A stretch of DNA of 34,942 bases from Sedimentisphaerales bacterium (GCA_029907605.1 JARYLO010000013.1:1-34942), one strand, 5' to 3'; numbered from the stretch's first letter, positions 9,218 to 32,091 are shown. The notes: generated by a model from the sequence alone, not told the origin. Numbers and translations: made by a program.

Positions 9218-9221
9218 AAGT

Positions 9222-11882: not shown

Positions 11883-11936
11883 GGCCGTTTGTACAACAGG
11901 GACTGGTCTGTGTAGCCGACCTACCAAGATCCAGAT

Positions 11937-11960
11937 CCTTCAATCGGGTGATCTTGAAGG
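11937..11960. other. Stem-loop after the first GH2 gene
   Basis: CCTTCAA and TTGAAGG pair around a 10-nt loop, 55 bp after the GH2 stop. There is no T-run. It may be a weak terminator or an mRNA 3' structure. The rest of the 198-bp gap up to 12081 shows only the ribosome-binding site of the next gene. Confidence 0.35.
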
Positions 11961-12080
11961 GGCCTAGACAGGCAAGATTCTGCTCAAGTAGAGACCCGGG
12001 CCCACCGATAGACCGCACAGACAGGGCGCCTTGGTTCCCAAGTCTGAGATCCTTGAGGCAAATATGTGTGGAGGCCGACC

Positions 12081-12992
12081 ATGAGTGAGACAAGACTGCG
12101 GGTGCCATTGCCTGGTTTATTCTTTAAGAGGGGTAGGCGCTGGTGGTGGCGGGTCCGATTGCCAGGCGAGCCAAAGGTCTATGCCAGATCGGTCAGGCCT
12201 GAAGGCCAGCGATACGGTGTGACAAACATGAAAAAGACCAGGGAGGTGGCCTTTGCACTATGGATGGAGGCACTGCGTCGTGAGGCACAGCGCCAGGCCA
12301 GGACCAGGGTGCGTTTCCAATACCTACACAAGCTCAAACTATTCAGGCGGCAGCTCGAGCAGTCCAAGGCCCAGCTCCATGAGGCGGTCCGCATAGAGAG
12401 ACGAAGGTGTGCCAGGCGTCTACGTATGTTGAGGGCGGCTATGGAGAGGGCCAAGGAAAGGGAGGTAGTGGCATTGAGGCTCCAGGCAAACAAGACCATT
12501 TCTGAGCAGAAGGCCGAACTCACCAAGCAGATCAGGGTCTGCAAGTGGCGGATCACGAGGTTGTTATCCCAGAAGAAGGATCGCTCAGAGGTGGCAGTGG
12601 CGGTTGCAAGTAGTGATAATGTAAAGGAAAGGCACAAGACCATGAAAAGGCCTAGTCGGCCCAGACACGTGGTACAGGCCAGGGTGCATACCACTGGCAG
12701 GAAGAAACTGCCTAGCAAGCCAAAGAGGATTGTAGAGCAACTGCCAGGGAGTGGTACTGAACAGGCCGCTGTGTTCACACAGGTACAGGCCGAGTTGGAC
12801 AAGGCCGTTACTGCAATAAGGCGGACTGCCCACTGCGAATGTTGCTTGTGCAATGGGGTTATTGAGGATGACCTGGTCAGGATCGACTCTGGACAAAGGC
12901 TTTGTCCGGCTTGCTATAGTGCCTTCCAGCAGAAGGTTGCCCAGATAGAACTAACCGAAGGCCCCGCGGCAGAGCCGCAGACCCACCCCTGA
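12081..12992 (+). CDS. Unrecognised basic coiled-coil protein with C-terminal Cys cluster
   Basis: Not assigned to a known family. The ATG at 12081 is preferred over that at 12066 because GGAGG lies 6 bp before it (303 aa). Visible parts: an N-terminal segment of about 45 residues (FFKRGRRWWWRVRLPGEPK) that resembles the arm-type DNA-binding start of tyrosine recombinases; a very basic helical region (about 50-165) rich in Arg, Lys, Glu and Gln, probably coiled coil; a Lys/Arg-rich linker (about 185-220); and near the C-terminus a Cys pair in HCECCLCNG (252-257) plus CPAC (275-278), arranged like a small zinc ribbon. No catalytic recombinase domain is present. It lies between secreted glycosidase genes but has no signal peptide, so a cytoplasmic nucleic-acid-binding or regulatory role is a guess. 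Confidence 0.65.
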   Translation: MSETRLRVPLPGLFFKRGRRWWWRVRLPGEPKVYARSVRPEGQRYGVTNMKKTREVAFALWMEALRREAQRQARTRVRFQYLHKLKLFRRQLEQSKAQLHEAVRIERRRCARRLRMLRAAMERAKEREVVALRLQANKTISEQKAELTKQIRVCKWRITRLLSQKKDRSEVAVAVASSDNVKERHKTMKRPSRPRHVVQARVHTTGRKKLPSKPKRIVEQLPGSGTEQAAVFTQVQAELDKAVTAIRRTAHCECCLCNGVIEDDLVRIDSGQRLCPACYSAFQQKVAQIELTEGPAAEPQTHP

Positions 12993-13157
12993 GGTTCGAA
13001 GGGCCCATTGACCATCATCTGCCGATACCAATATGGTCTGCAGATCTCTTGCCGGTAATGCCCTGTGCCTGTTAGACTGCTTTAGCGTAAGGTTCAAGGT
13101 CTTCGTTGGACCCAACGCTGGGCATATGTGATGCTGGCAGGTGTATTAAGGCGAGGT

Positions 13158-15935: not shown

Positions 15936-15949
15936 TTAAGGGTAAGGTT

Positions 15950-18349
15950 ATGCAAAGGTTCACAAGGGTTTTTCTGGGAGGATTCATTGTTGGTCTCTTG
16001 ATAGTGGGTTGTAGGATGCTGTCGAACGTCTCGCCTCAGATCCAATCCACTGCAAGGATCGTACAACCACTGGATTCTGATTGGCACTTCTATAAAGGGG
16101 ATGCAGCAGGGGCTGAGCAACCGCAGTTCGACGACAGCACATGGCGGAGGCTGGATGTGCCTCACGATTGGAGTATCGAAGGTCCATTTGATCCGAACAA
16201 CCCAACGGGTGGGGCCGGTGGTTTTCTGCCTGCAGGGATAGGTTGGTACCGCAGGCATCTGATACTGCCAAATGAGTATGCCGACAAGCGGATCTATGTG
16301 GAATTCGATGGGGTCATGGCCAACAGCGATGTCTGGATCAACGGCCTACACCTTGGCCACAGGCCATATGGATATGTCAGTTTTAGGTATGACCTGACCG
16401 GCAAGGTCCGCCTAGGCCCCAACCAACTGAACATCTTGGCGGTCAGGGCAGATAACCTCCTGCAGCCAGCATCCAGGTGGTATGCAGGTGCAGGCATATA
16501 CAGGCATGTCAGGCTCATAGTCACCGAACCACTGCATATAGACCAGTGGGCAACCTTTGTGACAACGCCTTATGTAGATCCTCAATTAGCACTTGTGAAT
16601 GTGAAGACTGCCATCCTCAATCAGACCAAACAGGATCAAGATGCAGCCATCGACCTGCAGATCATAGGACCTGACGGCGCCATCGTTCAATCTGGTAGGT
16701 CCGATGCCAGGACCATTGCCTCTGGGGAACGCGCAGAATATCAGATCGAGCTAAAGGTCACTGATCCTATGTTGTGGGATCTGGAAAGGCCAAACCTGTA
16801 TAAGGCCGTTGTTAAGGTAGTCTCTGGCGGCAAGGTCGTTGATGATGAACAGGTCACCTTTGGGATATGCAAGGCCGAATTCCGTGCAGAAAGTGGTTTC
16901 TGGTTGAATGACAAGAACGTGCGGATCAAAGGCGTTTGTCTACACCACGATGGTGGTGCGTTTGGTGCGGCAGTGCCGCTTGCGGTCTGGGAGAGGAGGC
17001 TCCAGAGGCTGCGGGAATTCGGGGTAAATGCGATACGTACCGCACACAATCCTGTTGCGCCGGAATTCCTGGATCTGTGCGACAGGATGGGCCTTTTGGT
17101 GATGGATGAGTTCTTCGACTGCTGGACCATAGGCAAGAATCCAGGGGATTATCACCTCTACTTCAATGATTGGTCCAAGATCGATCTGAGGGATACGATC
17201 CTCCGCGACCGAAACCACCCTTGTATCATAATCTACAGTGTGGGCAACGAGATAAGGGATACCACAAGGCCTGAGATGGCAAAGGCGATATTGAAGGGCC
17301 TGATTGACGTCTGCCATCGGTACGATCCCACTAGGCCGGTGACGCAGGCCCTATTTAGACCCAACGTCAGCAAGGACTATGACAATGGCCTTGCTGACAT
17401 GCTGGATGTGATAGGCACCAACTACAGGGATCGCGAATTGCTTGCAGCCTGGCAAGCAAGGCCGACCAGGAAGATCATAGGTACCGAACAGAGGCACGAC
17501 CTTGAGACCTGGCTGGCCATGCGTGACAATCCGCAGCATGCCGGCCAATTCCTGTGGACCGGTGTGGACTATTTGGGCGAGGCGTGGAGATGGCCTGTTG
17601 TTGGCGCAGGATCTGGCCTGCTCGACCGTACAGGTAGGCCAAGACCCATTGCATACCAGAGGGCCAGTTGGTGGTCCGATAGGCCGGTCGTTTATGCTGT
17701 AAGGCGGGTTGCGGTGGAGCGTCGTATGCCAGACGATCCTGGGTTTGAGCCGCTGGCAAGGCCCCAGGTATTGTTTGCAGATTGGACTCCAGCAGATCTG
17801 GGCCCCCACATGGAGACCGTGGAGGTCTATACCAACTGTGCACAGGTGGAATTGCAGCTAAATGGCAGGTCTCTTGGCATCAAACAAAGGGACCCAAATG
17901 ATGCCCCACTGACATGGCAGGTGGAGTTCGAGCCAGGGCAGCTAAAGGCTATAGGTCTGGATAGCGGCAGGCCACCTGTAGTCTGCCAGCTCCAAACGGC
18001 CGGCAGGCCTGCAAGGATTGTACTAGCAGCGGATCGCACAGAGCTGAGGCCTTGCTGGGATGATGTATGCCATGTAGAGGCGATGGTGGTGGATGGCAAT
18101 GGTGTGGTTGTGCCCTCAGCAGACCACATGATCAGGTTCTTGGTAAGCGGTCCAGGTACCATAGCAGCAGTAGACAATGGTTCGCTCTACAGCCACGAAC
18201 CGTTCCAGGCCACGCAGCGAAGGGCCTATCAAGGCTATTGTATGGCGTACCTGAAGGCTACCGGCCAGACAGGTAGGATCACACTGACTGCCACTGCTGA
18301 CGGTCTGCAGGAGGCATCCATATCCTTAGAGGCCGCGCCACTGAGATAG
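15950..18349 (+). CDS. GH2 beta-galactosidase-like lipoprotein
   Basis: 799 aa. The N-terminus is a lipoprotein signal (hydrophobic residues 8-20, then LLIVGC with Cys21), so the enzyme is likely membrane-tethered, unlike its soluble paralogs. Jelly roll (about 35-190, PHDWSIEGPF), linker, then TIM barrel with acid/base Glu434 (SVGNEIRD) and probable nucleophile Glu513 in IIGTEQRHD; the paralogs have SETAS/SESAS there, so this active site differs. QFLWTGVDYLGEAW follows, then the DUF4982-like domain (VELQLNGRSLG, FEPGQLKAIGL) and a terminal beta domain. It is about 90 residues shorter than the paralog at 9222. AAGG precedes the ATG by a few bases, and the 14-bp gap to the preceding gene implies co-transcription. 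Substrate preference is not deducible. Confidence 0.88.
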   Translation: MQRFTRVFLGGFIVGLLIVGCRMLSNVSPQIQSTARIVQPLDSDWHFYKGDAAGAEQPQFDDSTWRRLDVPHDWSIEGPFDPNNPTGGAGGFLPAGIGWYRRHLILPNEYADKRIYVEFDGVMANSDVWINGLHLGHRPYGYVSFRYDLTGKVRLGPNQLNILAVRADNLLQPASRWYAGAGIYRHVRLIVTEPLHIDQWATFVTTPYVDPQLALVNVKTAILNQTKQDQDAAIDLQIIGPDGAIVQSGRSDARTIASGERAEYQIELKVTDPMLWDLERPNLYKAVVKVVSGGKVVDDEQVTFGICKAEFRAESGFWLNDKNVRIKGVCLHHDGGAFGAAVPLAVWERRLQRLREFGVNAIRTAHNPVAPEFLDLCDRMGLLVMDEFFDCWTIGKNPGDYHLYFNDWSKIDLRDTILRDRNHPCIIIYSVGNEIRDTTRPEMAKAILKGLIDVCHRYDPTRPVTQALFRPNVSKDYDNGLADMLDVIGTNYRDRELLAAWQARPTRKIIGTEQRHDLETWLAMRDNPQHAGQFLWTGVDYLGEAWRWPVVGAGSGLLDRTGRPRPIAYQRASWWSDRPVVYAVRRVAVERRMPDDPGFEPLARPQVLFADWTPADLGPHMETVEVYTNCAQVELQLNGRSLGIKQRDPNDAPLTWQVEFEPGQLKAIGLDSGRPPVVCQLQTAGRPARIVLAADRTELRPCWDDVCHVEAMVVDGNGVVVPSADHMIRFLVSGPGTIAAVDNGSLYSHEPFQATQRRAYQGYCMAYLKATGQTGRITLTATADGLQEASISLEAAPLR

Positions 18350-18357
18350 TCACTAGA

Positions 18358-18378
18358 TCCAGATAGGCTTGATCTGGA
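18358..18378 (+). terminator. Weak stem-loop after the GH2 lipoprotein gene
   Basis: TCCAGAT / ATCTGGA, a 7-bp stem with a 7-nt loop, begins 9 bp after the stop and is followed by CCTCTTATA, a poor T-run. It is a likely but weak transcription end. A separate T-run (TTTTTT) lies near 18415 without a clear stem before it. Confidence 0.4.
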
Positions 18379-18454
18379 CCTCTTATACCCGCCTGTCGCG
18401 AGGACCGGAGCACATTTTTTACATCAGCTTTACAAAGGCCGCCGCCTTAAGGTG

Positions 18455-18460
18455 TATAAT
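18455..18460 (+). promoter_or_regulatory. Putative -10 box of the two-component operon
   Basis: TATAAT lies 32 bp before the response-regulator start. The best -35 match upstream, TTTACA, is 20 bp away, which is too far for an ordinary promoter. A small TCAC-T-GTGA inverted repeat (18474-18482) lies between the box and the start codon. Confidence 0.4.
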
Positions 18461-18491
18461 CAATAGAGACTTGTCACTGTGAAGAAGGGCT

Positions 18492-19190
18492 ATGGCACAA
18501 CCTTTATCGATCTTGGTTGTAGAGGATGATCAGACGATCAGGGAGGGGCTTGCCGATTTCCTCCGCTTGCACGGCTTTGCCGTGACCGTTGCCCCGGAGG
18601 GACCCAAGGCAATGGAGCTCGTTGAGGGCCGCAGGTTTGACGTGATCCTATTGGATCTAATGCTACCAGGGGTCAGCGGTGAGCAGCTATGTGTACAATG
18701 GCGTCAAAAAGGGATCGTCACCCCCATCATCATGGTCACTGCAAAGGGCCTTGAGCATCAGAGGATAGCTGGGCTCGAGATAGGTGCAGATGACTACATC
18801 ACCAAGCCCTTCAGCCTCGAGGAGCTACTTGCCAGGATCAAGGCGGTGCTCAGGAGGATAGATCCAAACCGCTCGGTTGGGCAGAAGTTTGGCATTGGTC
18901 CTTGGGAGATAGATCTATCGGTGTTGAAGGCCTGTGCCTTTGGAAAAGAGGTGGCCTTGACCCCTACTGAGGGCCATATCCTGCAGTACTTTGCCGCCAA
19001 TCCAAACCGCATCATAAGTCGCCAGGAGCTTTATGAGCGGGTATGGCATGACCAGATAACAGACATTGGCACAAGGACGATGGATATGCATATTGCCAAC
19101 CTCCGCAGCAAACTCGCCATTGAGTCCGCAGAGCCCCTGCCTATCGTGACGATCAGAGGTGCAGGCTATATGTACAAGGCCCGATCCTAG
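18492..19190 (+). CDS. OmpR/PhoB-family response regulator
   Basis: 232 aa. Receiver domain (1-120) with acidic pair Glu11/Asp12-Asp13, phospho-acceptor Asp55 in VILLDLMLPG, Thr83 and Lys105 (ITKPFSLEEL), all in place. The C-terminal winged-helix domain (about 130-230) has the usual LTPTEGHILQYFAANPNRIISR and RTMDMHIANLRSKL recognition-helix pattern, ending VTIRGAGYMYK. It binds DNA when phosphorylated by its partner kinase, whose start lies 5 bp after the stop. The ATG is supported by GAAGAAGGG. It sits between two carbohydrate-degradation blocks, so control of those genes is plausible but not shown. Confidence 0.95.
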   Translation: MAQPLSILVVEDDQTIREGLADFLRLHGFAVTVAPEGPKAMELVEGRRFDVILLDLMLPGVSGEQLCVQWRQKGIVTPIIMVTAKGLEHQRIAGLEIGADDYITKPFSLEELLARIKAVLRRIDPNRSVGQKFGIGPWEIDLSVLKACAFGKEVALTPTEGHILQYFAANPNRIISRQELYERVWHDQITDIGTRTMDMHIANLRSKLAIESAEPLPIVTIRGAGYMYKARS

Positions 19191-19195
19191 CGGCA

Positions 19196-21133
19196 GTGGC
19201 ATCCAGTATGTTCAAGCGGCTGATCATCTTGTCTGCACTAATAGGCATGGCCGTCCTGGCAGCGGCCATATTGGGCTATCTTGCGTTGGATAAATGGCGC
19301 CAGGGCCTGTACGGCTACAGGTTAGGAGGGTTTGCAAAGGTTGCATCGCAGATACACTCAGATGTAAAGCAGAAGTTGGATCGGTTCATCAAGACTGAGC
19401 AATCCAGGCCCTATACGGACTACTATCCATACCACCTGCCTGATCCAAACCTGTCCCAATCAGGCCAGGTCAGGGCCCTGATTCGTTCGCCTCTTTGGGG
19501 TAGATTGGACCACGGTCTGGCATATGGCCACTTCCAGGTATTGCCAGATGGCAGTATACAGACGCCCAATGACGGTCTCTTGGGCGCACTGGATGCAAAT
19601 ACCGCCTTAGTAGCCCAGGTTAAGCAGGTCAAGTCTGTTGTGAGCCAGCACTTGGTGCCCCTGTTGCGTCCTTCTTTGATGGAGGCAACTGCAGCAATGC
19701 AGATCCAGCCAAGCTTGCCTGTCCAAAAGGTCGATCAGCCCAAGGTGTCTAGCAAGGCTCAATCATTGTATATCGATACTTTGCAGCAGATGCCCGCAGA
19801 ATCGCAGGTCATTCGGGCAGATCGGCAATCTGCATATGCCAACCTGATCCTAAACAGCAATCCTGGCCAGGTGATAGGCCCTAACGATGTGGCCCCAGAA
19901 GTGCCTGCAGCCCGGGGCCTTGGCGTGAGGCAGCGGTCGGCCAGGCAGGCCGATGCGTACAGACAACTAGTACCGAATGCGTATAGGGCACAGCAGCTTG
20001 CAACAGATATACAAGGGCCTGTCACGGTCAAGGTCGGTCCATTAGTGCCGATCGTGTTGAAGGATGGATCTGAGAATGCATCGGTATTCGATGGAAGTGT
20101 GTATATGGTCCGACATGTGCAGGTTGGCGATCTGCAGCTCTTCCAGGGATTCAGGCTAGATGCCTCTAGGCTCATTGCAGAGATAGATGACTCCACTGCC
20201 AGGCTTGCAGGGCAGGACATGGGCTATGAACTTTCTAATGCCGAGTTGCCATCAGCGGCATATGCGGCGGTCTTGGACTTCGGCTTTGGTCGTGTGGTAC
20301 TGAACCTACTAGACCTTGATCCAGGTCTGATCGGTCGGAAGGTCAGGTATCTGAGCCTATGGTACTTTGTCGCTATGAGCCTGGTCGGACTGGCAGTAGC
20401 GCTAGGCCTGGCAGCCACATGGCACGGTGCATGGCAGCAGATGGAGCTATCCAGACAAAAAGATAGCTTCATATCCGCAGTCTCCCATGAATTGCGGACC
20501 CCTCTTGCCGGGATAAGGGTATGTGCTGAGATGCTCGAGAAGGGTTGGGTCAGTACCATCGAGCAAAGGGACCGCTACTACCATAACATCAGGCTGGAGG
20601 CAGAACGCCTGACCAGGTTGATAGAGAATGTCCTGGATTTCTCGCGTATCCAGCAGGGACGCCAGAGGTACCACCTTGTTGAAGGCGACATCAACCAGCT
20701 GCTAAGGGCCGTGGTGGAGACCGCAAGGCCTTTGGCCCAGGCACAAGGGCTGGAGATAAGGACTGAACTAGATCAGATACCTCCATTTCCCTTTGATCAC
20801 GATGCCATCACACAGATCTTGTTGAACCTGCTTGATAATGCGGTCAAGTTCGGCAACCCAAGCCGCGATAATCTCATCATCGTCAGGACCCGTCAGCAGG
20901 ATGATTTTGTCCTGATTGAGGTGGAAGACCATGGTCCTGGTATCCCTGAGGCGGAAAGGACGCGTATCTTTAGGCCCTTCTATCGTCTTGAGCCTGAGGC
21001 CACCAGGCGGACTAGGGGTGTTGGTCTAGGTCTGGCACTGGTGTGGAGGTTTGCTCTGGCCCACCAGGGCTTTGTACAGGTGGCCGAAGCCAGGCCCTGC
21101 GGAGCGGTCTTCACAGTAGGGCTGCGCAGGTGA
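19196..21133 (+). CDS. Sensor histidine kinase with large extracytoplasmic domain
   Basis: Partner of the preceding response regulator. With the GTG start it is 645 aa; an ATG at 19208 is an alternative, and neither has a strong ribosome-binding site. Order: membrane helix (about 8-30), a periplasmic stretch of about 350 residues with no recognised domain, second membrane helix (about 388-408), DHp domain with phospho-acceptor His431 (SAVSHELRTPLAGIR), and an ATP-binding domain with N box (LLNLLDNAVKFG), G1 box (DHGPGIPEAERTRIF) and G2 box (GVGLGLAL). All catalytic boxes are intact. The sensor part is Gln-, Pro- and Val-rich and shows no Cache, PAS or Reg_prop pattern. The ligand cannot be predicted. 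Confidence 0.92.
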   Translation: MASSMFKRLIILSALIGMAVLAAAILGYLALDKWRQGLYGYRLGGFAKVASQIHSDVKQKLDRFIKTEQSRPYTDYYPYHLPDPNLSQSGQVRALIRSPLWGRLDHGLAYGHFQVLPDGSIQTPNDGLLGALDANTALVAQVKQVKSVVSQHLVPLLRPSLMEATAAMQIQPSLPVQKVDQPKVSSKAQSLYIDTLQQMPAESQVIRADRQSAYANLILNSNPGQVIGPNDVAPEVPAARGLGVRQRSARQADAYRQLVPNAYRAQQLATDIQGPVTVKVGPLVPIVLKDGSENASVFDGSVYMVRHVQVGDLQLFQGFRLDASRLIAEIDDSTARLAGQDMGYELSNAELPSAAYAAVLDFGFGRVVLNLLDLDPGLIGRKVRYLSLWYFVAMSLVGLAVALGLAATWHGAWQQMELSRQKDSFISAVSHELRTPLAGIRVCAEMLEKGWVSTIEQRDRYYHNIRLEAERLTRLIENVLDFSRIQQGRQRYHLVEGDINQLLRAVVETARPLAQAQGLEIRTELDQIPPFPFDHDAITQILLNLLDNAVKFGNPSRDNLIIVRTRQQDDFVLIEVEDHGPGIPEAERTRIFRPFYRLEPEATRRTRGVGLGLALVWRFALAHQGFVQVAEARPCGAVFTVGLRR

Positions 21134-21156
21134 TCTTGCCTTTGGCCTGAATTAGC

Positions 21157-21184
21157 TTGATTGGCAGGGCAACCGCTGTAATCT
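21157..21184 (+). promoter_or_regulatory. Possible promoter of the 21209-24432 unit
   Basis: TTGATT and TAATCT are separated by 16 bp, 24 bp before the start codon at 21209. It is a modest match only. Read-through from the kinase gene is also possible because no terminator is seen in the 75-bp gap. Confidence 0.35.
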
Positions 21185-21208
21185 CAATGGCCAAATAGGA
21201 GTAGGACT

Positions 21209-22054
21209 ATGAGGCAGTTTGTGATCACACCAGCAGCAGGCAAGCGATTGATAGCAAAGGGGATATTGGGCCATCCGCTTGTTAAGGAGGCATTGTCCAG
21301 TAGGACCGTTGTCATAGTGGCAGGTACCACCAATGGCTATGTAGCCCAAGAGGTCTTGGCTGCCATTGGTCAGGCAGCAGGATTTGACAGCAGTAGGTTC
21401 TTCAGGGGTGTGGTCCTTCCACCTGCAGTAGAAAGGACCAGCGAAGGCAGGCTCCCTGACCAGGGGGGATTCCCTGGCGATGTGATCATAAGGCAGGGCA
21501 AGTGGATCAAGGGCAAGACCATATTCGATGTAGCTGAGCAGTTGAAGGAGGGCGACCTGATACTAAAGGGCGCAAATGCCCTGGACCTCTCCAGGCGCCA
21601 GGCAGCGGTGCTCATAGGCCATCCCCAGGCAGGTACCACAGGGGCGATCCTCCAGGTGGTTGCTGGTAGGAGGGTCAGATTGATCGTACCTGTGGGCCTT
21701 GAAAAGAGGATCCTAGGCGATCTGCATGAGCTGGCCTTGATGCTCAACAGCCCTGGCTGGGATGGGCCTAGGCTGCTGCCTTTGCCAGGTGAGGTCTTTA
21801 CCGAGATCGATGCGATCAGACTCCTGACTGGTGCCTGTGCGCAGTTGGTCGCTGCAGGCGGCGTGGGTGGGGCAGAAGGCTGTGTATGGCTGGCAGTTGA
21901 GGGGGCCAAAGACCAGTTGGATGCTGCCCAATCCCTGATCGGTTCTGTGCAAGGCGAACCTGCATTCAGTCTGTCACTGCATTTGGGGCCCGGCCTTGCC
22001 AGTGCACCGCAATCTAGAAAGGGCGGGATATGGACTGTTACTTGTTGCCAATAG
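21209..22054 (+). CDS. Conserved-looking protein of unknown function
   Basis: 281 aa, not recognised. It has no signal peptide or membrane helix. It is rich in glycine and alanine with alternating beta/alpha segments: [18 protein letters not shown] near 33-50, [13 protein letters not shown] near 115-128, a glycine-rich [14 protein letters not shown] segment near 228-243. The pattern suggests a Rossmann-like or other cytoplasmic enzyme fold. The start is well supported by TAGGAG 8 bp upstream. Its last 25 bp overlap the start of the GH127 gene in another frame, so the two are translationally linked, which is odd for a cytoplasmic protein and a secreted arabinosidase. No function is proposed. 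Confidence 0.7.
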
Positions 22055-24432
22055 TGATCCTTCTTGTATCCACTGTGGTGCAAGGGCCGGCCCCTCAACA
22101 GGACTATCCGGTCCAGGCCGTCCCAGCCGAGTCCGTTATCCTGCAGGATGGGTTCTGGTCTGTCAGGCTCAAGGTCAATCGAGAGGTGACCATACCACAT
22201 TGCCTCCAGCAGTGCCAGCAGACCGGCAGGATCAGCAACTTCGAGAAGGCGGCAGGGTGTGCCAAGGGGGCCTTCGCGGGGATGCACTTCAACGATTCGG
22301 ATCTGTACAAGGTCATGGAGGGGGCAGCGTATGTCCTTCGATCTGGTCAAGACAGGATGATGCGGCTCTACCTGGATCAGCTAGTCCGGATCATCGCAGC
22401 GGCCCAATGGGACGATGGTTATCTGTTTACGTTTTATTCGGTGCCCCAGCGTCAACCTGACCAGCGTTGGACCAACATACAGTGGATCCACGAGCTCTAC
22501 TGTATGGGTCATATGTACGAGGCCGCTGTTGCACACTACCAGGCCACTGGTGATCGGACCTTCCTGGATGTGGCGATACGCAATGCTGATCTGGTCTGCA
22601 AGACATTCAACCCAGATGGCCGCACAGACCCACCAGGCCATCAGGAGATAGAGATAGGGCTTTGCAAGCTGTATCGTGTTACAGGCAATAGGAGATACCT
22701 GGACCAGGCCAGGTTCTTCCTTGAGCAGAGGGGAAGACTAGGCCGGCGAGGGCCCGATGGAAAGGCAGGTCTGTACGGCACGTACTCACAGGACCAGGTC
22801 CCTGTGCTGGACCAGGCAGAGGCCGTAGGCCATGCGGTCCGTGCCATGTATATGTATGCGGCCATGGCGGATGTGGCTGCATTGACTGGTGATAAGGCCT
22901 ACGTCCAGGCCCTCGACAGGATATGGGCGGATGTGGTTGGTGGCAAGCTATATGTGACAGGTGGGATCGGCGCTGCAGGTGGGCACGAGGGTTTCGCAGG
23001 TCCATATGAACTTCCGAACATGACCGCCTATTGCGAGACCTGTGCCTCTATCGCGAACATACTGTGGAATCACCGCATGTTCCTGACGCACCTGGACGCC
23101 AGGTATGTCGATGTGCTAGAGAGGACCTTGTACAATGCCCTGCTTTCGGGGGTCTCGATGGGTGGGGATCGATTCTTCTATCCCAATCCACTCGAGTCCC
23201 GCGGACAACACCAGCGAAGCCCCTGGTTCGAGTGCGCGTGTTGCCCTTCGAACATAGCCAGGTTTATCCCGCTTGTCCCAGGCCTTTTCTATGCATATGG
23301 GAAGGGAGGTCTGTTTATCAACCTCTTTGGCGCTGGCAAGACAAGCTTGAATACACCGCTTGGCCGGTTGGACCTGACCCAAAAGACCGATTACCCATGG
23401 GATGGCAAGGTCAGGATAGAACTGGATCCTGCAAAGGAGATGGATCTGACCATACACGTGAGGATACCAGGCTGGTCACGCAATGAACCTGTTCCAAGCG
23501 ACCTGTACAGGTTCGCAGATGGAGTCAGGTCAGAACCTGGTATAGCCGTAAACGGCAGCCCAATAGACCTGAAGGTCACGCAGGGCTATATCACGATCCG
23601 CCGCAGGTGGAGGCGAGGCGACTGGATAGATCTGGACCTGCCGATGCCTGTAAGGCGGATCTCAGCAGACCCTCATGTGAGGGCAGACAAGGGCAAGGTC
23701 GCCATCCAAAGGGGTCCTATCGTGTTCTGTCTAGAGGGCATAGACAACGATGGACAGGTCTTTGACATGTATATACCAGAGGATGCGGAGTTTGCGGCAG
23801 TATTCAGGCCGGAACTGCTAGGTGGCGTGATGGTCGTGACAGGTCAGGCAAAGACCACTCAGAGGAGGCTTGATGGCAGTATAGAGGCGGTAGGCCAGCG
23901 GCCATTTATTGCAATACCATACTATGCATGGGCCCATAGGGGGCCATGCCAGATGACGGTCTGGCCGGCTTGCACACCAGAGGCGACCAGGCCCAGGCCC
24001 GCACCAACCCTCGCCTATACGAGCAAGACCACGGCCTCATTTGTCCACGTGTCATTGGATGCGATAAAGGACCAGGTCATACCTGAAGGCTCATCTGACT
24101 CGTCCAACCTGCAACTGGACTTCTGGCCGCACAAGGGTACCACCGAATGGGTCCAATTCGAATGGGGCCAGCAGCAATCGATATCCAAGGTCCAGGTATA
24201 TTGGTTTGACGATACCGGTACTGGTGAATGTAGGGTGCCACAATCCTGGCAGGTCCTGTACCGCGATGCCGATGGTCGATTCAAACCGGTAATGGCAAAG
24301 GGCCCATATGGCACTGGGAAGGATCGGTTCAACCAGGTCCACTTCGATCCAGTCCAGACCGATTGCATCAGGATCGAGATACAACTGCAGCCAGGTTGGT
24401 CAGCCGGCATACAAGAGGTGGTGATAGAATAA
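22030..24432 (+). CDS. GH127 beta-L-arabinofuranosidase with C-terminal discoidin-like domain
   Basis: 800 aa (former DUF1680). N-terminal signal peptide (residues 1-19, [15 protein letters not shown]). The (alpha/alpha)6 barrel carries the GH127 metal/cysteine site in the same spacing as in HypBA1: Glu320 (GGHEGF, acid/base), Glu336 and Cys338 (YCETC), and the Cys404-Cys405 pair in CACCPSN, of which Cys404 corresponds to the nucleophile. Beta-sandwich domains follow. The last about 120 residues ([36 protein letters not shown]) look like a discoidin/F5-8C carbohydrate-binding domain. The enzyme would remove beta-L-arabinofuranose from arabinosides of plant cell-wall glycans. The gene overlaps the end of the preceding one and is closed by a strong terminator. 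Confidence 0.93.
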
Positions 24433-24486: not shown

Positions 24487-26118
24487 TTACTTATTCAGTA
24501 TCGCCATAGCTAGGTCATCCTGGGCCTCTAGCATATACGGTATGCCAGTGACCTCTGCAATCTCGCGATTAGCTGCCATCAGGTCGTCACGGCTGATCTG
24601 GTCAAGGCTAAACTTCCTTGCCCCAGCCATGAACTGTTGCAGGCCGCAGGCCAGCTTGTCTGCATAGGTGTACATGGCAATGGCCCCAAATGGGATGTTC
24701 TTCATCTCATCTGCACCGACCTTTGCCTTGACGTATTCCCAGCCTGCAAAGATCTCCTCCGGGGTACTGCCGATCTCCTTTACAGAAGGCGGCAATTCAT
24801 CCCAGTGCCCATTGACCTGCTCCTTCTTGTCAGGCTGGAGCACGCCCTGGATGTTGCTGCCCAGGAACCCTGGGATCATAGGTGCACGTCCCATGCAGAC
24901 GATCTTCGCGAAAGGTGCACAAAGGGCCAAGGCCTTGAATATGTGGTCTTCCCTTGCCATGCCGCCTGCAAGGGATATATCTGGAGGTGTAATACCCTTA
25001 TCGGCCAGGATCTTGCAGTACTGATAGGTCTTTGCATGCAATGGCAAGGAAGGTATGCCCCAATGCTCCATCATGTTTCAAGGTGACATCCCTGTACCAC
25101 CACCTGCACCGTCGACGGTCAGAAGGTCAAGGCCTGCATGTGCTGCGAACCTTATGGCCATAGCCAAGGCCTCCAGGCCATAGGCACCGGCTTTAGGCTG
25201 ATCCTCTTCCAGCCCATCTTCCTGAGGGTCTCAACCCCCTTCATGAAGTCCTCACGGACCTACTCAACGGTAGATAGGTTGGTGCCACCTAGCCTACTGT
25301 GCCTGGCAAAGCTCTTGATGGATCCATCCTTGCACGCTGCCTGAACGACTGGATCATATGGATCTGGATCCCCCACATAGCCCTATCCTTCAAGAACTTG
25401 GCATACTCAATATCCGTTACCTGGATCTCCCCGCCGATGTCCTTTGCGCCCTGGCCCCATTTAAGCTCGATTATGGCCTTATCACCATACTTGTCTACCA
25501 CGTACTGAGCTACCCCGTTGCGGGTGTCCTCTACGTTCATCTGCACGATGATCGCGCCATAACCATCATAATACCTCAGGTATGTCTCGATTCTGCGATC
25601 GAGTTCCGGGGCCTTGCTTATCTTGCCCTTGTTTATTACTGCCTTGCAGTCTATGCCGACTACATTCTCTCCAACCACGATTGGGATGCCACACAAGGCT
25701 GCCCCAACGGCGAATGAATCCCAATACCGTGCGGCAACGAAGGTCGAAGCCCAGTGCGCCTGTCATTATAGGCATACGGCACTTGGTCTTCTCCTCCTTG
25801 CCAAAGCTGGTGCTGATATCCACATTGGGGAAGACACAATCATCTGGATCATTGCTCAACCCCTTTGGCAGCCCCTTTGCCCCGTATGCGTATCCCTGTA
25901 TGCGTAGCGCATGATACCTCACGCCCAGTGCCACGACATTCCCAGGGCCTGAGGTGATCCAGCCATAGTTGCGGGGATACAGCAGCTTTCGCCCAAGGAG
26001 GCTGGACATCCAGGTCTCGCACCTTCCCTTGCAGTCCGACATGCAGAGGGTACACAGGCCGCTCTCACATGCGTCGCCCCTGTTGGCAGTTCCAAGCACG
26101 TCATTTCTCTTTCGCCAT
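24487..26118 (-). pseudogene. Glutamate synthase-like (FMN-binding domain) pseudogene
   Basis: Reading across frames on the minus strand restores a nearly full glutamate-synthase central-domain protein of the archaeal/short type: an N-terminal Cys-rich segment (ESGLCTLCMSDCKGRC), CGIPIVVGENVVG, YLRYYDGYGAI, ELKWGQGAKDIGGE, SFARHSRLGGTNLS, DGAGGGTGMSP, MMEHWGIPS, VGADEMKNIPFGA. Lesions seen: an extra base near 25747 (between TGALG and STF), a lost base near 25380 (after FLKDR), TAG at 25262-25260, a lost base near 25190 (in ISLKTGAYG), and TGA at 25080-25078 where SPWNMMEH is expected. A further slip near the start (about 26100) is possible; the ATG at 26118 or the GTG at 26099 may have been the start. 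Intact, it would have bound FMN and a Fe-S cluster and made glutamate from 2-oxoglutarate and ammonia or glutamine. It diverges from nrpR. Confidence 0.93.
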
Positions 26119-26310: not shown

Positions 26311-26357
26311 CCTCAGCTTTTAGGTGTCTAGCAGTTTATGGTTCGGAGATCTTGCCG

Positions 26358-27380
26358 ATGCAGATTTCTGTCAGATCCTCAAAGAAGATAGACAAGAAGC
26401 TGGCCATACTCAACGTCTTAAAGGAGCATGAAGCCCCCCTCACCTCCAGCTGTATCCTGGATCTATTGTCCACTAGCGGCCTTGAGCTTAGTGAGCGGAC
26501 CATACGTTTCTATCTTGCGCAGACCGATCAGGAGGGGCTGACCAGGCCTTGCGGTCGAAAAGGGAGGGTCCTGACTGAGGCAGGTCTAGCAGAATTGCAA
26601 TCATCTCAGGTCATGTACATGCCTGGCTACTTGTCGGCTAAGATGGATCAGATGGTCTACAAGATGACCTTTGATCTTGCGATGCGTAGTGGAACGGTGG
26701 TAGTGAATACCTCCCTGGTGGAACCGCAGAAGTTGGCCAGTTGTCTGGACAAGGTCTGTAAGGTCTTCGAGAAGGGCTATGGCATGGGCAGGCTGATGAC
26801 CTTGCTTGGCCCTGGGGAGACCGTCGGTCAGATCACTGTACCACCTGATAAGATCGGCTTTTGTACGGTCTGTTCTATCACCATCAACGGTGTCCTGCTA
26901 AAGCACGGCATACCCATGAGCTGCCGATTTGGTGGGCTGCTAATGCTGAAGGATGGCAGACCATTTCGGTTTACGGATGTGATCCACTATGACGGTACTA
27001 CCATCGATCCACTTGAGGTCTTTATTAGAAGCGGTATGACCAACTACCATGGGGCCATAAGCACTGGTAATGGGCTGATAGGGGCGAGTTTCCGGGAGGT
27101 CCCTGCTGATAGCAGGCAGAGGTTGCTCAACCTGAGCGAACGACTTGAGGAGGTGGGGTTGGGAGCGATCATGGAGGTAGGCCTTCCAAATCAACCTTTG
27201 CTTGACATACCTGTTGCGCCTGCCAGGGTTGGGGTCATCGTGGTTGGCGGGCTCAATCCCATCGCCATACTAGAGGAGGTCGAGCACAGGATCGTATCAC
27301 GGGCCCTTGCAGGTCTGTTGGAGTTTGACCGGCTATTCGATTATCGGCATGCAGCCAAACGATTAGAGCAATACCTGTAG
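26358..27380 (+). CDS. nrpR: NrpR-family nitrogen regulator
   Basis: 340 aa from the ATG at 26358, chosen because GGAG lies 9 bp upstream; a TTG at 26352 is also in frame. The N-terminal winged-helix domain (about 5-70: LAILNVLKEHEAPLTSS, SERTIRFYLAQTDQEGL) precedes a single NrpR/DUF128 effector domain (about 80-325: FEKGYGMGRLMTLLGPGE, GFCTVCSITINGVLLKHGIP, GAISTGNGLIGASFREVP, VGVIVVGGLNPIAILEE). Methanogen NrpR represses glnA and nif genes and releases DNA when 2-oxoglutarate is high; M. maripaludis NrpR has two such domains, this one has one. Its place opposite a glutamate-synthase relic, with palindromes between, fits a local nitrogen regulator. Targets beyond this locus cannot be seen. 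Confidence 0.9.
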   Translation: MQISVRSSKKIDKKLAILNVLKEHEAPLTSSCILDLLSTSGLELSERTIRFYLAQTDQEGLTRPCGRKGRVLTEAGLAELQSSQVMYMPGYLSAKMDQMVYKMTFDLAMRSGTVVVNTSLVEPQKLASCLDKVCKVFEKGYGMGRLMTLLGPGETVGQITVPPDKIGFCTVCSITINGVLLKHGIPMSCRFGGLLMLKDGRPFRFTDVIHYDGTTIDPLEVFIRSGMTNYHGAISTGNGLIGASFREVPADSRQRLLNLSERLEEVGLGAIMEVGLPNQPLLDIPVAPARVGVIVVGGLNPIAILEEVEHRIVSRALAGLLEFDRLFDYRHAAKRLEQYL

Positions 27381-27595: not shown

Positions 27596-28951
27596 ATGAG
27601 TACCACGCTCGACCGAAGGGAGTTCTTGAAAAAGGTGGCTGCGACCGGATTGGCAGGTTCATTGGCTGGCGTAGTTTCAACTGGCTGCCACCAACAGAGG
27701 GCCAACCTGCCGGCACTGTTATGGCCCGATAGGCCCAGGGATCTAGTCAGGGTTGGGTTTGTGGGCATAGGCAACATGGGCAGGGGTCACATAGAGAACC
27801 TCCTACGCATAGAGGGTTGCCAGATCGCCGCTGTCTGCGACATCCTGCCAGAAAGGGCCCAGTGGGCAAGGCAGAGGATCATAGATTCAGGTCAGCCTGA
27901 GCCAAAGGTGTATGGCCAAAGAGGCGAAAGGGACTTCCAGAGGCTCTGCCAGCAGGAGGATCTGGACCTTGTCTACACCGCCACCCCTTGGCAATGGCAT
28001 ACACCCATATGTGTGGCTGCGATGGCAAATGGCAAGCACGCTGCCTGTGAGGTCCCGATCGCTACGACCCTGGATGAGTGCTGGCAACTTGTCGAGACAT
28101 CGCAGCGATACAAGAGATACTGTGTGATGATGGAGAACTGCTGTTATGACCGCATAGAGATGGCAGTACTGAATATGGTCAGGCAGGGCTTGTTTGGTCA
28201 GTTGTTACATGCAGAATGCGGGTATCTACACGACCTGCGGGAATTGAAGCTCTCACCCACTTATTATCAAGGGATGTGGCGTTTGAAGTATGCTATCCAT
28301 CGAAATGGCAATCCGTATCCAACCCATGGCATAGGGCCAGTGGCATGGTGCATGGACATATTGCGAGGTGATAGGTTCGAATACTTGGTCTCTATGAGTA
28401 CCAAGTCCATAGGTTTGAACCTGTACGCCAAGGCCAGGTATCCACAATGGGCAGATCAGCGATTCAAGCTGGGCGACATAAACACCACACTGATCCACAC
28501 TGCCTTGGGAAAGACCATAATAGTCAAGCATGATACTCACCTTCCAAGGCCTTACAGCCGTGACTTCCTCATCCAGGGCACAAGGGGTCTGGTAAGGAAG
28601 TACCCTCAGCCACTGATTTACATAGAAGGGGAGGGGGCATCCGATCAGTGGCAGCCGTTTGCCAAGTACCTCGAAGGTTATGAGCACCCAGTATGGGAGG
28701 CGCTGAACAAGCAGGCCCAGGGCGCGGGCCATGGCGGCATGGACTTCATAGAAGATTACAGGCTGATCCAGGCCCTACGCAAAGGCGTGCCACCCGACAT
28801 TGACGTCTATGATTCAGTTACATGGAGTGCGATATTCCCTCTGAGCGAACGATCTGTTGCAGCAAGGGGCAGGCCTGTAGCATTCCCTGATTTCACTGGG
28901 GGCAAGTGGGGTTCTGCCAGACCGCTTGGGGTCTTTGAACATCAGCTCTGA
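27596..28951 (+). CDS. Gfo/Idh/MocA-family protein, GH109-like NAD-dependent glycosidase
   Basis: 451 aa. The N-terminus has a Tat motif (DRREFLKK) and a lipobox (STGC, Cys31), so it is probably exported folded with its cofactor and lipid-anchored. A Rossmann domain starts VRVGFVGIGNMGRGH (about 51-65), with ATPWQWH and CEVP near 129-154 instead of the usual dehydrogenase EKP. Features shared with GH109 alpha-N-acetylgalactosaminidases: MMENCCYDR near 178-186, YPTHGIGPVA near 241-250 and GHGGMDF near 378-384. GH109 enzymes use tightly bound NAD and an oxidation-elimination mechanism. The start has a perfect AAGGAGG. Downstream genes for sugar activation support release of an N-acetylhexosamine. 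Other MocA oxidoreductases are possible, since the family is wide. Confidence 0.85.
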   Translation: MSTTLDRREFLKKVAATGLAGSLAGVVSTGCHQQRANLPALLWPDRPRDLVRVGFVGIGNMGRGHIENLLRIEGCQIAAVCDILPERAQWARQRIIDSGQPEPKVYGQRGERDFQRLCQQEDLDLVYTATPWQWHTPICVAAMANGKHAACEVPIATTLDECWQLVETSQRYKRYCVMMENCCYDRIEMAVLNMVRQGLFGQLLHAECGYLHDLRELKLSPTYYQGMWRLKYAIHRNGNPYPTHGIGPVAWCMDILRGDRFEYLVSMSTKSIGLNLYAKARYPQWADQRFKLGDINTTLIHTALGKTIIVKHDTHLPRPYSRDFLIQGTRGLVRKYPQPLIYIEGEGASDQWQPFAKYLEGYEHPVWEALNKQAQGAGHGGMDFIEDYRLIQALRKGVPPDIDVYDSVTWSAIFPLSERSVAARGRPVAFPDFTGGKWGSARPLGVFEHQL

Positions 28952-29027
28952 TAGGTACTTGGCCAGCACGTACAGATCGCTAGAATATCCGCTTTCGTGA
29001 TCAGTTCGGTCATATGAAAGGGTGATT

Positions 29028-29963
29028 ATGGCGCAGAAGATCAGGGATACCTATGAAGGCCCAACCCTGCTTGTGATGGCAGCGGGGATGGGAAGCCGTT
29101 ACGGCGGGCTAAAACAGATAGACCCGATAGGTCCTAATGGCGAGTGGATCCTGGATTATTCACTGTATGATGCAATCGCTGCTGGGTTCAAGAAGGCGGT
29201 ATTCATTATCCGCAAGGACTTTGAGAGGGCCTTTCGGGATAGGATCGAGGCCAACCTGGCCGGCAGGATCCAGACCGCATTTGTTTGTCAGGAGCTGGAT
29301 AGCCTGGTGCCGCCAGAGAGGATACCGCCGGACCGAAAGAAACCTTGGGGTACAGGTCACGCGGTCCTTGTGGCAAGGGATGTGGTCACAGGCCCATTTG
29401 CAGTGATCAATTCAGATGACTACTATGGCTCTGGCACGTATCGGATGATCAAGAAACTATTGCACAAGATGACCAACTCCGATGGGCACCAGCAGATAAT
29501 GATCGGGTACCGTCTACGCAATACCCTGTCTGAGCATGGTGGGGTGACAAGGGGGATATGTCAATGCGATGGTGATGGGTATCTTATAGGTATAACCGAG
29601 CAGAAGGGGCTCGAGATGTCTGGCCAGGATGCCATCGTCCGTCAAGGTGACTCTGTGATCAGGTTCCCTGGCGATACGATTGTATCCATGAACTTCTGGG
29701 GATACCATCCAAGGATATTCAACGCATTTGATGCCCTGTTCCAGGTTTTCATCAATGAGCAGGTAGATGCTCAGCAGGAATTCCTATTGCCTACGATCAT
29801 AAACACCCTGGTCAAACAGGGCATGATCACGGTCAAGGTCATACCTACGGATGAAGGCTGGTTCGGTGTCACGTATAAGCAGGACAAGGATGCGGCAGTG
29901 GAGAGGATCAAGGACCTTATCAGGCTTGGTCGATATCCTCGAGACCTCTGGTCTAGGCCGTGA
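29028..29963 (+). CDS. Sugar-1-phosphate nucleotidyltransferase
   Basis: 311 aa from the ATG at 29028 (AAAGGG about 6 bp upstream); the GTG at 29022 is a less likely start. The nucleotide-binding signature LVMAAGMGSRYGGLKQ is at 15-30, then the sugar/metal region with WGTGHAVLVARD and INSDDYYG near 104-130, and the C-terminal WFGVTYKQD. It transfers a nucleotide, probably UMP, to a sugar-1-phosphate. It overlaps the next gene, a NahK-like kinase, by 4 bp (GTGA), so its substrate is most likely GalNAc-1-P or GlcNAc-1-P, as in lacto-N-biose/amino-sugar salvage. This substrate is inferred from context only. It is 76 bp after the GH109-like gene with no terminator between. Confidence 0.87.
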   Translation: MAQKIRDTYEGPTLLVMAAGMGSRYGGLKQIDPIGPNGEWILDYSLYDAIAAGFKKAVFIIRKDFERAFRDRIEANLAGRIQTAFVCQELDSLVPPERIPPDRKKPWGTGHAVLVARDVVTGPFAVINSDDYYGSGTYRMIKKLLHKMTNSDGHQQIMIGYRLRNTLSEHGGVTRGICQCDGDGYLIGITEQKGLEMSGQDAIVRQGDSVIRFPGDTIVSMNFWGYHPRIFNAFDALFQVFINEQVDAQQEFLLPTIINTLVKQGMITVKVIPTDEGWFGVTYKQDKDAAVERIKDLIRLGRYPRDLWSRP

Positions 29964-31069
29964 CTGTTGAGAGCGATCCTAGGTCCATAGCCGAATCCTT
30001 TCAGGTTGATGGCAGCCTTGTAGACTGTCGGCCGTATGGCCATGGCCATATCCATCAGACCTATCTTACGAGTTTCCAGGTTTGTGGCCGCATTTGTCGG
30101 TATATACTGCAACGGATCAATTCCAGTGTGTTTGCAGACCCGCCTGCAATGATGGACAACATCACCCGCGTGACATCCCATATCAGGCACAAGCTACAGC
30201 AGGCAGGGTGTAAGGACATCCAGCGGCTGGCCCTGACGGTCGTACCTGCAAAGGATGGCCTGCCATATTACGTGGATGGCAATGGGCATTTCTGGAGGAT
30301 GTATGTCTATATAGAGAATGCGATAACGGTCGAGGTCCCGCAGGATTGCAGCCAGATATACCAGGCAGCCAAGGCCTTCGGCCAGTTCATCCGCCAGTTA
30401 GTGGACCTGCCAGTTCCCAGATTGCACCAGACCATACCGCTATTCCATGATGGGCCTACCAGGCTCAGGCAGCTAAAGGATGCCTTGTCTGCTGACAGGC
30501 TCAACAGGGCGATGGCCGCCAAGGAAGAGATAGAATTCATCCTCGAACACCAGGCCATCCTGCTTTGGCCAGCAGATCTGCTACAAAAGGGCATCCTTCA
30601 GACACAGATCACACACAACGATACCAAGATCAATAATGTCTTGTTGGATGCCACTTCTGGTCAAGGTCTATGTGTGATCGACCTGGATACCGTGATGGAT
30701 GGATTGTGGATATACGATCTTGGCGATATACTCCGCACCACCTGTACTACCGCCTGCGAGGATGAGCAAGACCTGACAAAGGTTAAGGTGGATCTGGAAA
30801 GATATAGGGCGGCAGTAGAGGGATTCCTCAAAGGTGCCGATGGCATGATCGACTGCAGGCAATACCAGTACATACCCCTGAGTGGCCGGTTCATGGCCTT
30901 GATCATGGCTACCAGGTTCCTGACCGATTTTCTGGCAGGCGATATGTACTTCAAGGTCTCCAGGCCCAATCATAATCTAGATAGGTGCCGGTGCCAGTGC
31001 AGATTGGTCCAATCCATGCTGCAGCATGCAGGACAGATCGAAGGGATTGTGGACGGTTTGGGCTATTAG
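29960..31069 (+). CDS. NahK-like N-acetylhexosamine 1-kinase (APH-fold)
   Basis: 369 aa. Aminoglycoside-phosphotransferase fold with a glycine-containing N lobe (YGHGHIHQTYL), the catalytic loop THNDTKINNVLLD (218-230, Asp221 as base) and metal motif CVIDLDTVMDG (238-248), followed by YDLGDILR. This is the NahK pattern, in which ATP phosphorylates the anomeric hydroxyl of GalNAc or GlcNAc. It starts with GTG inside the stop of the nucleotidyltransferase gene. With that enzyme it would give a UDP-activated amino sugar without deacetylation. It ends tail-to-tail with the next gene, overlapping by 4 bp. Homoserine kinase and other APH members are less likely given the context. Confidence 0.85.
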   Translation: MTVESDPRSIAESFQVDGSLVDCRPYGHGHIHQTYLTSFQVCGRICRYILQRINSSVFADPPAMMDNITRVTSHIRHKLQQAGCKDIQRLALTVVPAKDGLPYYVDGNGHFWRMYVYIENAITVEVPQDCSQIYQAAKAFGQFIRQLVDLPVPRLHQTIPLFHDGPTRLRQLKDALSADRLNRAMAAKEEIEFILEHQAILLWPADLLQKGILQTQITHNDTKINNVLLDATSGQGLCVIDLDTVMDGLWIYDLGDILRTTCTTACEDEQDLTKVKVDLERYRAAVEGFLKGADGMIDCRQYQYIPLSGRFMALIMATRFLTDFLAGDMYFKVSRPNHNLDRCRCQCRLVQSMLQHAGQIEGIVDGLGY

Positions 31070-32091
31070 TATTGGACTGCATTGACAAAGGCCCTTATGT
31101 TGTCCGTAGTCACGTCTGGTGGCATCCCACCACCGCAAGAGGGTATCCATCTGCGTTTGTCCGCGACATGCTGGAGCATCTGCTTGACTGTCTGTCTGAC
31201 CTGATCTGGGGTCCCTTGTGCCAGTATGTCCCTGGCAGGGATGTTCCCCAGTATGGTGATGCGGTCCCCGGCCAGTTTCCTCAATTGGTTGATATCCTCA
31301 TTTGAACCAGGATTGTAGAGGTTTACGCCCATCTTGCTGTATTGGGCTATGGACTGGCTGCAAGGTGCATCGTTGTGGAAGAATCTTACTGAAGGGCCAT
31401 CTGCAAACAGGGCCTGCAGATATGGGAATGCAAACTCGGCAAAGTCGTCAGGCCCTATGAAGCCTACCACATCGTCCAGTATCATGATACCGTCGATGCT
31501 GGCAAATGAATCGCGTTGGAGCTGGTGCCATTGTTTGAGGAATTCGGTGATCAGACCGAGAAACTTGTGGATCGGGCCAGGATCGGTCTTTATGGCCATC
31601 AGGAATTCAGTAGTGCCCATCAAGAAGGATGCGATGTTCAATGGCCCCCTCGATACAGAAAACCTGATCCTATGGCCAAGGTCCTCTATCTGCGGTCTGG
31701 CCCACCTGAGCCTTTGGATGACAAATGGCAACAGGCCATCTGTCCTAGGGTCTGGCATTTCAAGATCGTCAATGTCAGATATCCTCAGGATGCTCCTCTT
31801 GGCGCTCGGAAAGCCATCCTCAGGAAACTGGCAGGTTGCGCCAAAGGCAGAAGGTTCTGTGCACATCCCATATTCTGCCCAGAATCCGGGCAGGAACCAG
31901 ACCTGCGGGAAGGTCTCTACGGCCTTGCGATTCGCATCAAACCAGATCTGCTCGTCTGCAAGGTAATCAATGACCTTTGTGCCATACCAGCCAGGCAGCC
32001 ACGGGCAGTCTATGATAAAGGCACACGGAAGTGGGTCTAGGACCTGGCCTGAAAGGACGGCCAATAATTGTTGCCATTGTTTGTCGGTCAT
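31066..32091 (-). CDS. Uroporphyrinogen decarboxylase-family protein
   Basis: 341 aa. TIM-barrel protein of the URO-D/methyltransferase group: RFSVSRGPLNIASFLMG mid-protein, MILDDVVGFIGPDDF, FFHNDAPC, GVNLYNPGS, GNIPARDILAQGTPDQV and a C-terminal PSCGGGMPPD. The lack of the heme-pathway N-terminal arginine motif and the MtaA/CmuA-like features suggest it is not HemE; the true substrate (corrinoid methyl transfer or a sugar-related role) is unknown. Its ATG shares one base with the stop of the upstream GH2 gene (TGATG), with AAGGAGG before it inside that gene, so translation is coupled. Such proteins often lie within carbohydrate loci of planctomycetes and related phyla without a known task. 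Confidence 0.85.
   Translation of the reverse strand: MTDKQWQQLLAVLSGQVLDPLPCAFIIDCPWLPGWYGTKVIDYLADEQIWFDANRKAVETFPQVWFLPGFWAEYGMCTEPSAFGATCQFPEDGFPSAKRSILRISDIDDLEMPDPRTDGLLPFVIQRLRWARPQIEDLGHRIRFSVSRGPLNIASFLMGTTEFLMAIKTDPGPIHKFLGLITEFLKQWHQLQRDSFASIDGIMILDDVVGFIGPDDFAEFAFPYLQALFADGPSVRFFHNDAPCSQSIAQYSKMGVNLYNPGSNEDINQLRKLAGDRITILGNIPARDILAQGTPDQVRQTVKQMLQHVADKRRWIPSCGGGMPPDVTTDNIRAFVNAVQY

Follow-up and report, generated by a model that had tools for sequence, protein, structure and literature searches.

In Bacteroides thetaiotaomicron, the operon BT4240-43 of the polysaccharide utilization locus BT4240-50 encodes an N-acetylgalactosamine (GalNAc) 1-kinase, a proven, periplasmic alpha-N-acetylgalactosaminidase of glycoside hydrolase (GH) family 109 and a GH2 enzyme (PMC11992087). 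The kinase BT4240 is a proven GalNAc 1-kinase that is 39% identical to NahK and prefers GalNAc by ~275-fold, and its deletion abolishes growth on GalNAc; the main text of that paper names no nucleotidyltransferase, UDP-sugar or epimerase and does not discuss the fate of GalNAc 1-phosphate (GalNAc-1-P) (PMC11992087). The lacto-N-biose/galacto-N-biose pathway of Bifidobacterium longum (GLNBP-NahK-GalT-GalE) relies on a GH112 phosphorylase, a NahK-type kinase that yields an N-acetylhexosamine 1-phosphate, and GalT, which forms the UDP-sugar by exchange with UDP-glucose (PMC8106489), all without deacetylation. A 2017 survey of gut genomes listed one described catabolic route for GalNAc, via tagatose 6-phosphate, and noted that many of the genomes possess GalNAc-releasing enzymes but no pathway (PMC5583593). 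Here we analyze a cluster of three genes at positions 27596-31069 of a 34,942-nucleotide stretch of DNA from a Sedimentisphaerales bacterium (GCA_029907605.1 JARYLO010000013.1:1-34942, referred to below as the window), which encode a GH109-type glycosidase, a nucleotidyltransferase and a NahK-like kinase and which may constitute a further variant of such pathways.

Our best reading, to which we assign a probability of roughly 0.6, is that the cluster serves deacetylation-free salvage of GalNAc in the order GalNAc, GalNAc-1-P, UDP-GalNAc and UDP-GlcNAc (GlcNAc, N-acetylglucosamine). Acting on alpha-linked glycans, the exported GH109 enzyme would liberate GalNAc through an NAD-dependent sequence of oxidation, elimination, hydration and reduction, and the sugar would be taken up by a transporter encoded away from the cluster. 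The kinase would then phosphorylate the anomeric oxygen to give GalNAc-1-P, the nucleotidyltransferase would use UTP to convert GalNAc-1-P to UDP-GalNAc, and a 4-epimerase encoded elsewhere in the genome would turn UDP-GalNAc into UDP-GlcNAc. The end product may supply the cell envelope or be broken down for carbon, and the origin of the sugars from a host or a community, as proposed in an earlier note on this DNA, is speculation. The cluster has in common with BT4240-43 the pairing of a GH109 enzyme with an anomeric kinase of the APH/NahK family, and differs from it in a nucleotidyltransferase gene that overlaps the kinase gene and in having no transporter gene beside it. It would resemble the bifidobacterial pathway in proceeding through a 1-phosphate to a UDP-sugar, but with an exported hydrolase in place of the phosphorylase, while the role of GalT would fall to a separate nucleotidyltransferase from a different family. 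A GH109 enzyme and a GalNAc kinase in one operon are thus already known from B. thetaiotaomicron; what is new is the paired nucleotidyltransferase, from a family that has no assigned substrate.

All three open reading frames (ORFs) lie on the + strand of the window, and they bear out the genes, coordinates, order and GTGA overlap given in the earlier note. The GH109 gene (27596..28951) is followed after a gap of 70 bp by the nucleotidyltransferase gene (29022 or 29028..29963), whose stop overlaps the GTG start of the kinase gene (29960..31069) in the GTGA at 29960..29963. ORFs on the minus strand beneath the cluster are short shadows of these genes. Neither an Rfam element nor an excess of promoter or terminator signals over shuffled sequences was found for the cluster.

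The first protein consists of 451 amino acids (aa), and its ATG is preceded by AAGGAGG. It carries a twin-arginine translocation (Tat) signal above the NCBIfam cut-off (TIGR01409), a Rossmann domain of the Gfo/Idh/MocA type (PF01408, 62 bits) and the GH109 C-terminal domain PF21252 (E 7e-59, 198.7 bits against a cut-off of 27). Its alignment with AmGH109A of Akkermansia muciniphila (6T2B) gives E 4e-95 at 40% identity. The catalytic residues of AmGH109A are Tyr226, His259 and His404 (PMC10755693); these residues, the last of them in the GGHGG loop, correspond to Y210, H244 and H379 here, and a single offset of 25 in the chain numbering applies throughout. With both domains and the catalytic Tyr/His/His in place, the protein fits the GH109 family, and NAD-dependent alpha-N-acetylgalactosaminidase activity is predicted; export through the twin-arginine pathway would be sensible for an enzyme carrying bound NAD. 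The GH109 fold and catalytic residues are shared with AmGH109A and with the bacterial alpha-N-acetylgalactosaminidase 2IXA, whereas the context of a kinase and a nucleotidyltransferase is a feature of the window.

The kinase (369 aa) has the APH fold (Pfam, E 2e-18) and matches NahK (4WH1) with E 2e-75 in phmmer, at 41% identity over 342 residues, with query residues 9-364 aligned; it is as near to B. longum NahK (41%) as BT4240 is (39%). In NahK, Asp208 is presumably the catalytic residue and Asn213 and Asp228 the metal ligands. These three align with D221, N226 and D241, which are invariant in 17 homologues. The nearly full-length homology and the conservation of the presumed catalytic and metal-binding residues suggest an N-acetylhexosamine 1-kinase that phosphorylates GlcNAc or GalNAc.

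The nucleotidyltransferase, a predicted UTP:N-acetylhexosamine-1-phosphate uridylyltransferase, is 313 aa long when counted from the GTG at 29022, although the ATG at 29028 is likely the true start because it is better spaced behind GAAAGGG. No Pfam family matched it. The sole solved structure that its sequence matches well is 3PNN (phmmer E 3e-83), to which it is 43-44% identical along almost its entire length; 3PNN is an entry from Porphyromonas gingivalis W83 that was deposited as a glycosyltransferase and released in 2010 with no substrate assigned. The AlphaFold model (predicted local distance difference test score 89) has 3PNN as its best superposition (Z 39), followed by structures of the RmlA, GalU and GlmU types at Z 20-22 over ~230-245 residues; by this model the protein has the fold of the sugar-1-phosphate nucleotidyltransferases. 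The GlmU family TIGR01173 was not among its NCBIfam matches, the archaeal GlmU family scored 20 bits, far under its cut-off, and the GalU family TIGR01099 scored 23.7 bits against a cut-off of 327. A literature search under the names 3PNN and GalNAc-1-P uridylyltransferase found no paper. UTP and GalNAc-1-P are proposed as substrates from the genomic partners and context.

To assess how the three genes are associated in other organisms, 294 genomes of the same phylum as the window were searched, and the flanking DNA of 45 further kinase loci was compared with that of the window (46 in total), using a codon-trained ORF caller together with tblastn. The kinase is found in 30 genomes and the nucleotidyltransferase, at high confidence, in 18. 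Both are present in 13 genomes, compared to 1.8 expected (p 5e-11, with phylogeny ignored). The two genes are adjacent at 17 of the 45 further loci, with the nucleotidyltransferase first in 16 and the order reversed in one; with the window included this amounts to 18 of 46, the nucleotidyltransferase preceding the kinase in 17 of the 18 and both genes lying on the same strand in all of them. The aligned ends of the linked genes overlap or lie at most about 60 bp apart. Fusion of the two, considered for kinase frames of 670-680 aa, was rejected, as the two genes occupy different frames. Because it is a conserved partner of the kinase, the 3PNN-family nucleotidyltransferase is a candidate for the step after GalNAc-1-P that was left open in the 2025 Bacteroides work; if this is true, a structural family gains a function and a gap in GalNAc metabolism closes.

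Two observations concern individual loci. In the sister species a 914-aa protein with no Pfam match is encoded directly upstream of the pair, in the place of GH109 (L096 4290-7034), and another relative (G337, L110 7108-10833) has two kinase copies close together, one of them short (a 227-aa frame).

The neighbours of the kinase in relatives argue for GalNAc as the sugar. In three relatives a gene of the UDP-sugar 4-epimerase type, 68-71% identical to that of one of them (G300), lies directly 3' of the kinase gene; its best matches among solved structures include UDP-glucose epimerases as well as WbpP and WbgU, epimerases that act on UDP-N-acetylhexosamines. In G300 itself the nucleotidyltransferase, kinase and epimerase genes are consecutive, and in G335 the kinase and epimerase genes are followed by a GH31 gene whose product is closest to the structures of GH31 alpha-N-acetylgalactosaminidases (E 8e-112, compared to 9e-57 for the next GH31 group). 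GalNAc is favoured because a second, unrelated family predicted to release it adjoins the kinase, and because galacto sugars, unlike gluco sugars, require a 4-epimerase. The enzyme assignments of the earlier note and the order of steps that it predicted (release, 1-phosphorylation, UDP activation) are well supported by the sequences and by these independent neighbours. That note had also remarked that no phosphorylase or epimerase stands beside the genes; this holds for the window neighbours examined, whereas the epimerase-type gene does adjoin the kinase in the three relatives. Na+/solute symporters, which six relatives encode no more than a few kb away from the pair, and sulfatases near some relatives' kinases lend weak support to an origin of the sugars in sulfated glycans, weak because both kinds of genes are common in such genomes.

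The same neighbourhoods bear on whether the pair could be an AmgK/MurU system for recycling of peptidoglycan, acting on N-acetylmuramic acid (MurNAc) and GlcNAc. The Pseudomonas system, compared here by description only, likewise has an anomeric kinase adjoining a nucleotidyltransferase, with MurNAc as the sugar. However, almost the whole of our kinase aligns with NahK (E 2e-75), the nucleotidyltransferase is a long protein of the 3PNN type, MurU being shorter, and neighbouring genes in relatives encode glycosidases, sulfatases, symporters and epimerases, with recycling genes not noticed among those examined. We consider this explanation very unlikely.

Several results weigh against the proposed GalNAc salvage pathway. 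GH109 is found near none of the 45 other kinases, and in ten relatives that have both GH109 and the pair it is always on another contig. Since it adjoins the pair in the window's genome only, the conserved unit consists of the nucleotidyltransferase and the kinase, with GH109 as a lineage-specific addition; a conserved three-gene operon was rejected for GH109, and of the operon put forward in the earlier note the other two members stand as a conserved pair. The link to alpha-linked GalNAc consequently comes from one genome and the GH31 case. Even the pair is not obligatory, as the kinase has no linked nucleotidyltransferase at 28 of the 45 further loci. No transporter gene lies beside the three genes, and the substrates of NahK include both GlcNAc and GalNAc, with weak acceptance of mannose (PMC6264712). 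As to the nucleotidyltransferase, the modelled fold does not choose the nucleotide or the sugar because RmlA, GalU and GlmU, and also PntC, are equally near, and no assayed member of the 3PNN family was found.

The lone adjacency of GH109, the incomplete linkage of the pair and the breadth of NahK-type kinases, which accept both GlcNAc and GalNAc, speak for a rival reading: the pair would be a general module for salvage of N-acetylhexosamines, mainly GlcNAc from turnover of chitin or cell walls, and GH109 would be functionally unrelated to it, placed there by chance or only recently. On the other hand, the GH109 gene is the single one found in the window's genome and precedes the pair on the same strand at a distance of 70 bp, and such a placement is unlikely by chance, although this argument comes from one genome. 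GH109 is also over-represented among genomes with both genes of the pair (5 of 13, compared to 1.1 expected; p 0.002, with phylogeny ignored), and the putative GH31 alpha-N-acetylgalactosaminidase and 4-epimerase-type gene beside a relative's kinase fit poorly with GlcNAc, which needs no epimerase. We regard such a general module, with GH109 unrelated to it, as rather unlikely.

A further alternative is that the nucleotidyltransferase serves another sugar 1-phosphate, such as galactose 1-phosphate in a Leloir-type pathway, or works with a nucleotide other than UTP, its linkage to the kinase then having some other cause. The comparable protein, by description only, is GalY of Akkermansia (Amuc_0031), predicted to be a nucleotidyltransferase that replaces GalT and clustering with galE in 15 genomes (PMC5583593). 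The equally near folds of RmlA, GalU and PntC agree with this idea, as do five genomes that have the nucleotidyltransferase without the kinase, but the linkage to the kinase is strong and specific, with gene ends that overlap or nearly meet, which makes a different substrate doubtful in our view. For the GalNAc pathway as a whole, the observation made in the earlier note is confirmed and its interpretation partly supported.

The metabolic setting was examined in the window's genome, which is 94.6% complete. No NagA-type deacetylase was found there over the cut-off, which fits the route without deacetylation put forward in the earlier note; the lone short partial match to NagA was rejected, since the gene concerned looks like one for a dihydroorotase. 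This genome's closest counterpart to the epimerase linked to the kinase is encoded on a different contig, with top scores to proteins of the TviC/GalE type. GH112 (PF09508) was not detected in the genome, and 25 genomes gave no match, yet control genomes gave none either. GlmS is present, whereas canonical GlmU was not found over the cut-off in the window's genome or in the sister species; the best GlmU hits, either partial matches to its acetyltransferase half or an RmlA-like gene, fell under the cut-off and were rejected as the genome's nucleotidyltransferase. Canonical GlmU over the cut-off is likewise missing from many genomes in two further families of this order. The kinase occurs in 8 of 17 relatives lacking GlmU and in 8 of 44 having it (p 0.027, with phylogeny ignored), and several genomes without GlmU are also without the kinase, so that substitution of the pair for the missing GlmU is suggestive only. 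Because GlmU is lacking over the cut-off though GlmS is present, one could imagine that the 3PNN-family enzyme acts beyond catabolism as a new, GlmU-independent UDP-N-acetylhexosamine pyrophosphorylase that feeds the cell envelope from scavenged GalNAc, an idea that we find quite improbable.

Downstream of the cluster, a convergent gene outside it (31066..32091, minus strand) encodes a protein of the uroporphyrinogen decarboxylase (URO-D) family (PF01208, E 6e-38), and a convergent gene of the GH2 beta-galactosidase type is also found downstream. URO-D genes (MtaA/uroporphyrinogen decarboxylase-like) recur near the pair at three other loci (L104, L107 and L108). Upstream of GH109, a + strand gene (26352..27380) encodes an NrpR-type regulator (PF01995, E 2e-76, with HTH_12). 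It is divergent from three short minus-strand ORFs at 24487-26099, which by eye resemble consecutive, possibly frameshifted pieces of a glutamate synthase-type gene and gave no Pfam match at E 0.1; because of this arrangement the regulator may belong with nitrogen metabolism rather than with the sugar cluster. Further upstream, the + strand genes at 8276-24432 include a pectinesterase, three GH2 genes, a response regulator/histidine kinase pair and a GH127 gene whose product is near aceric acid hydrolase, and this region looks like a cluster for degradation of pectin.

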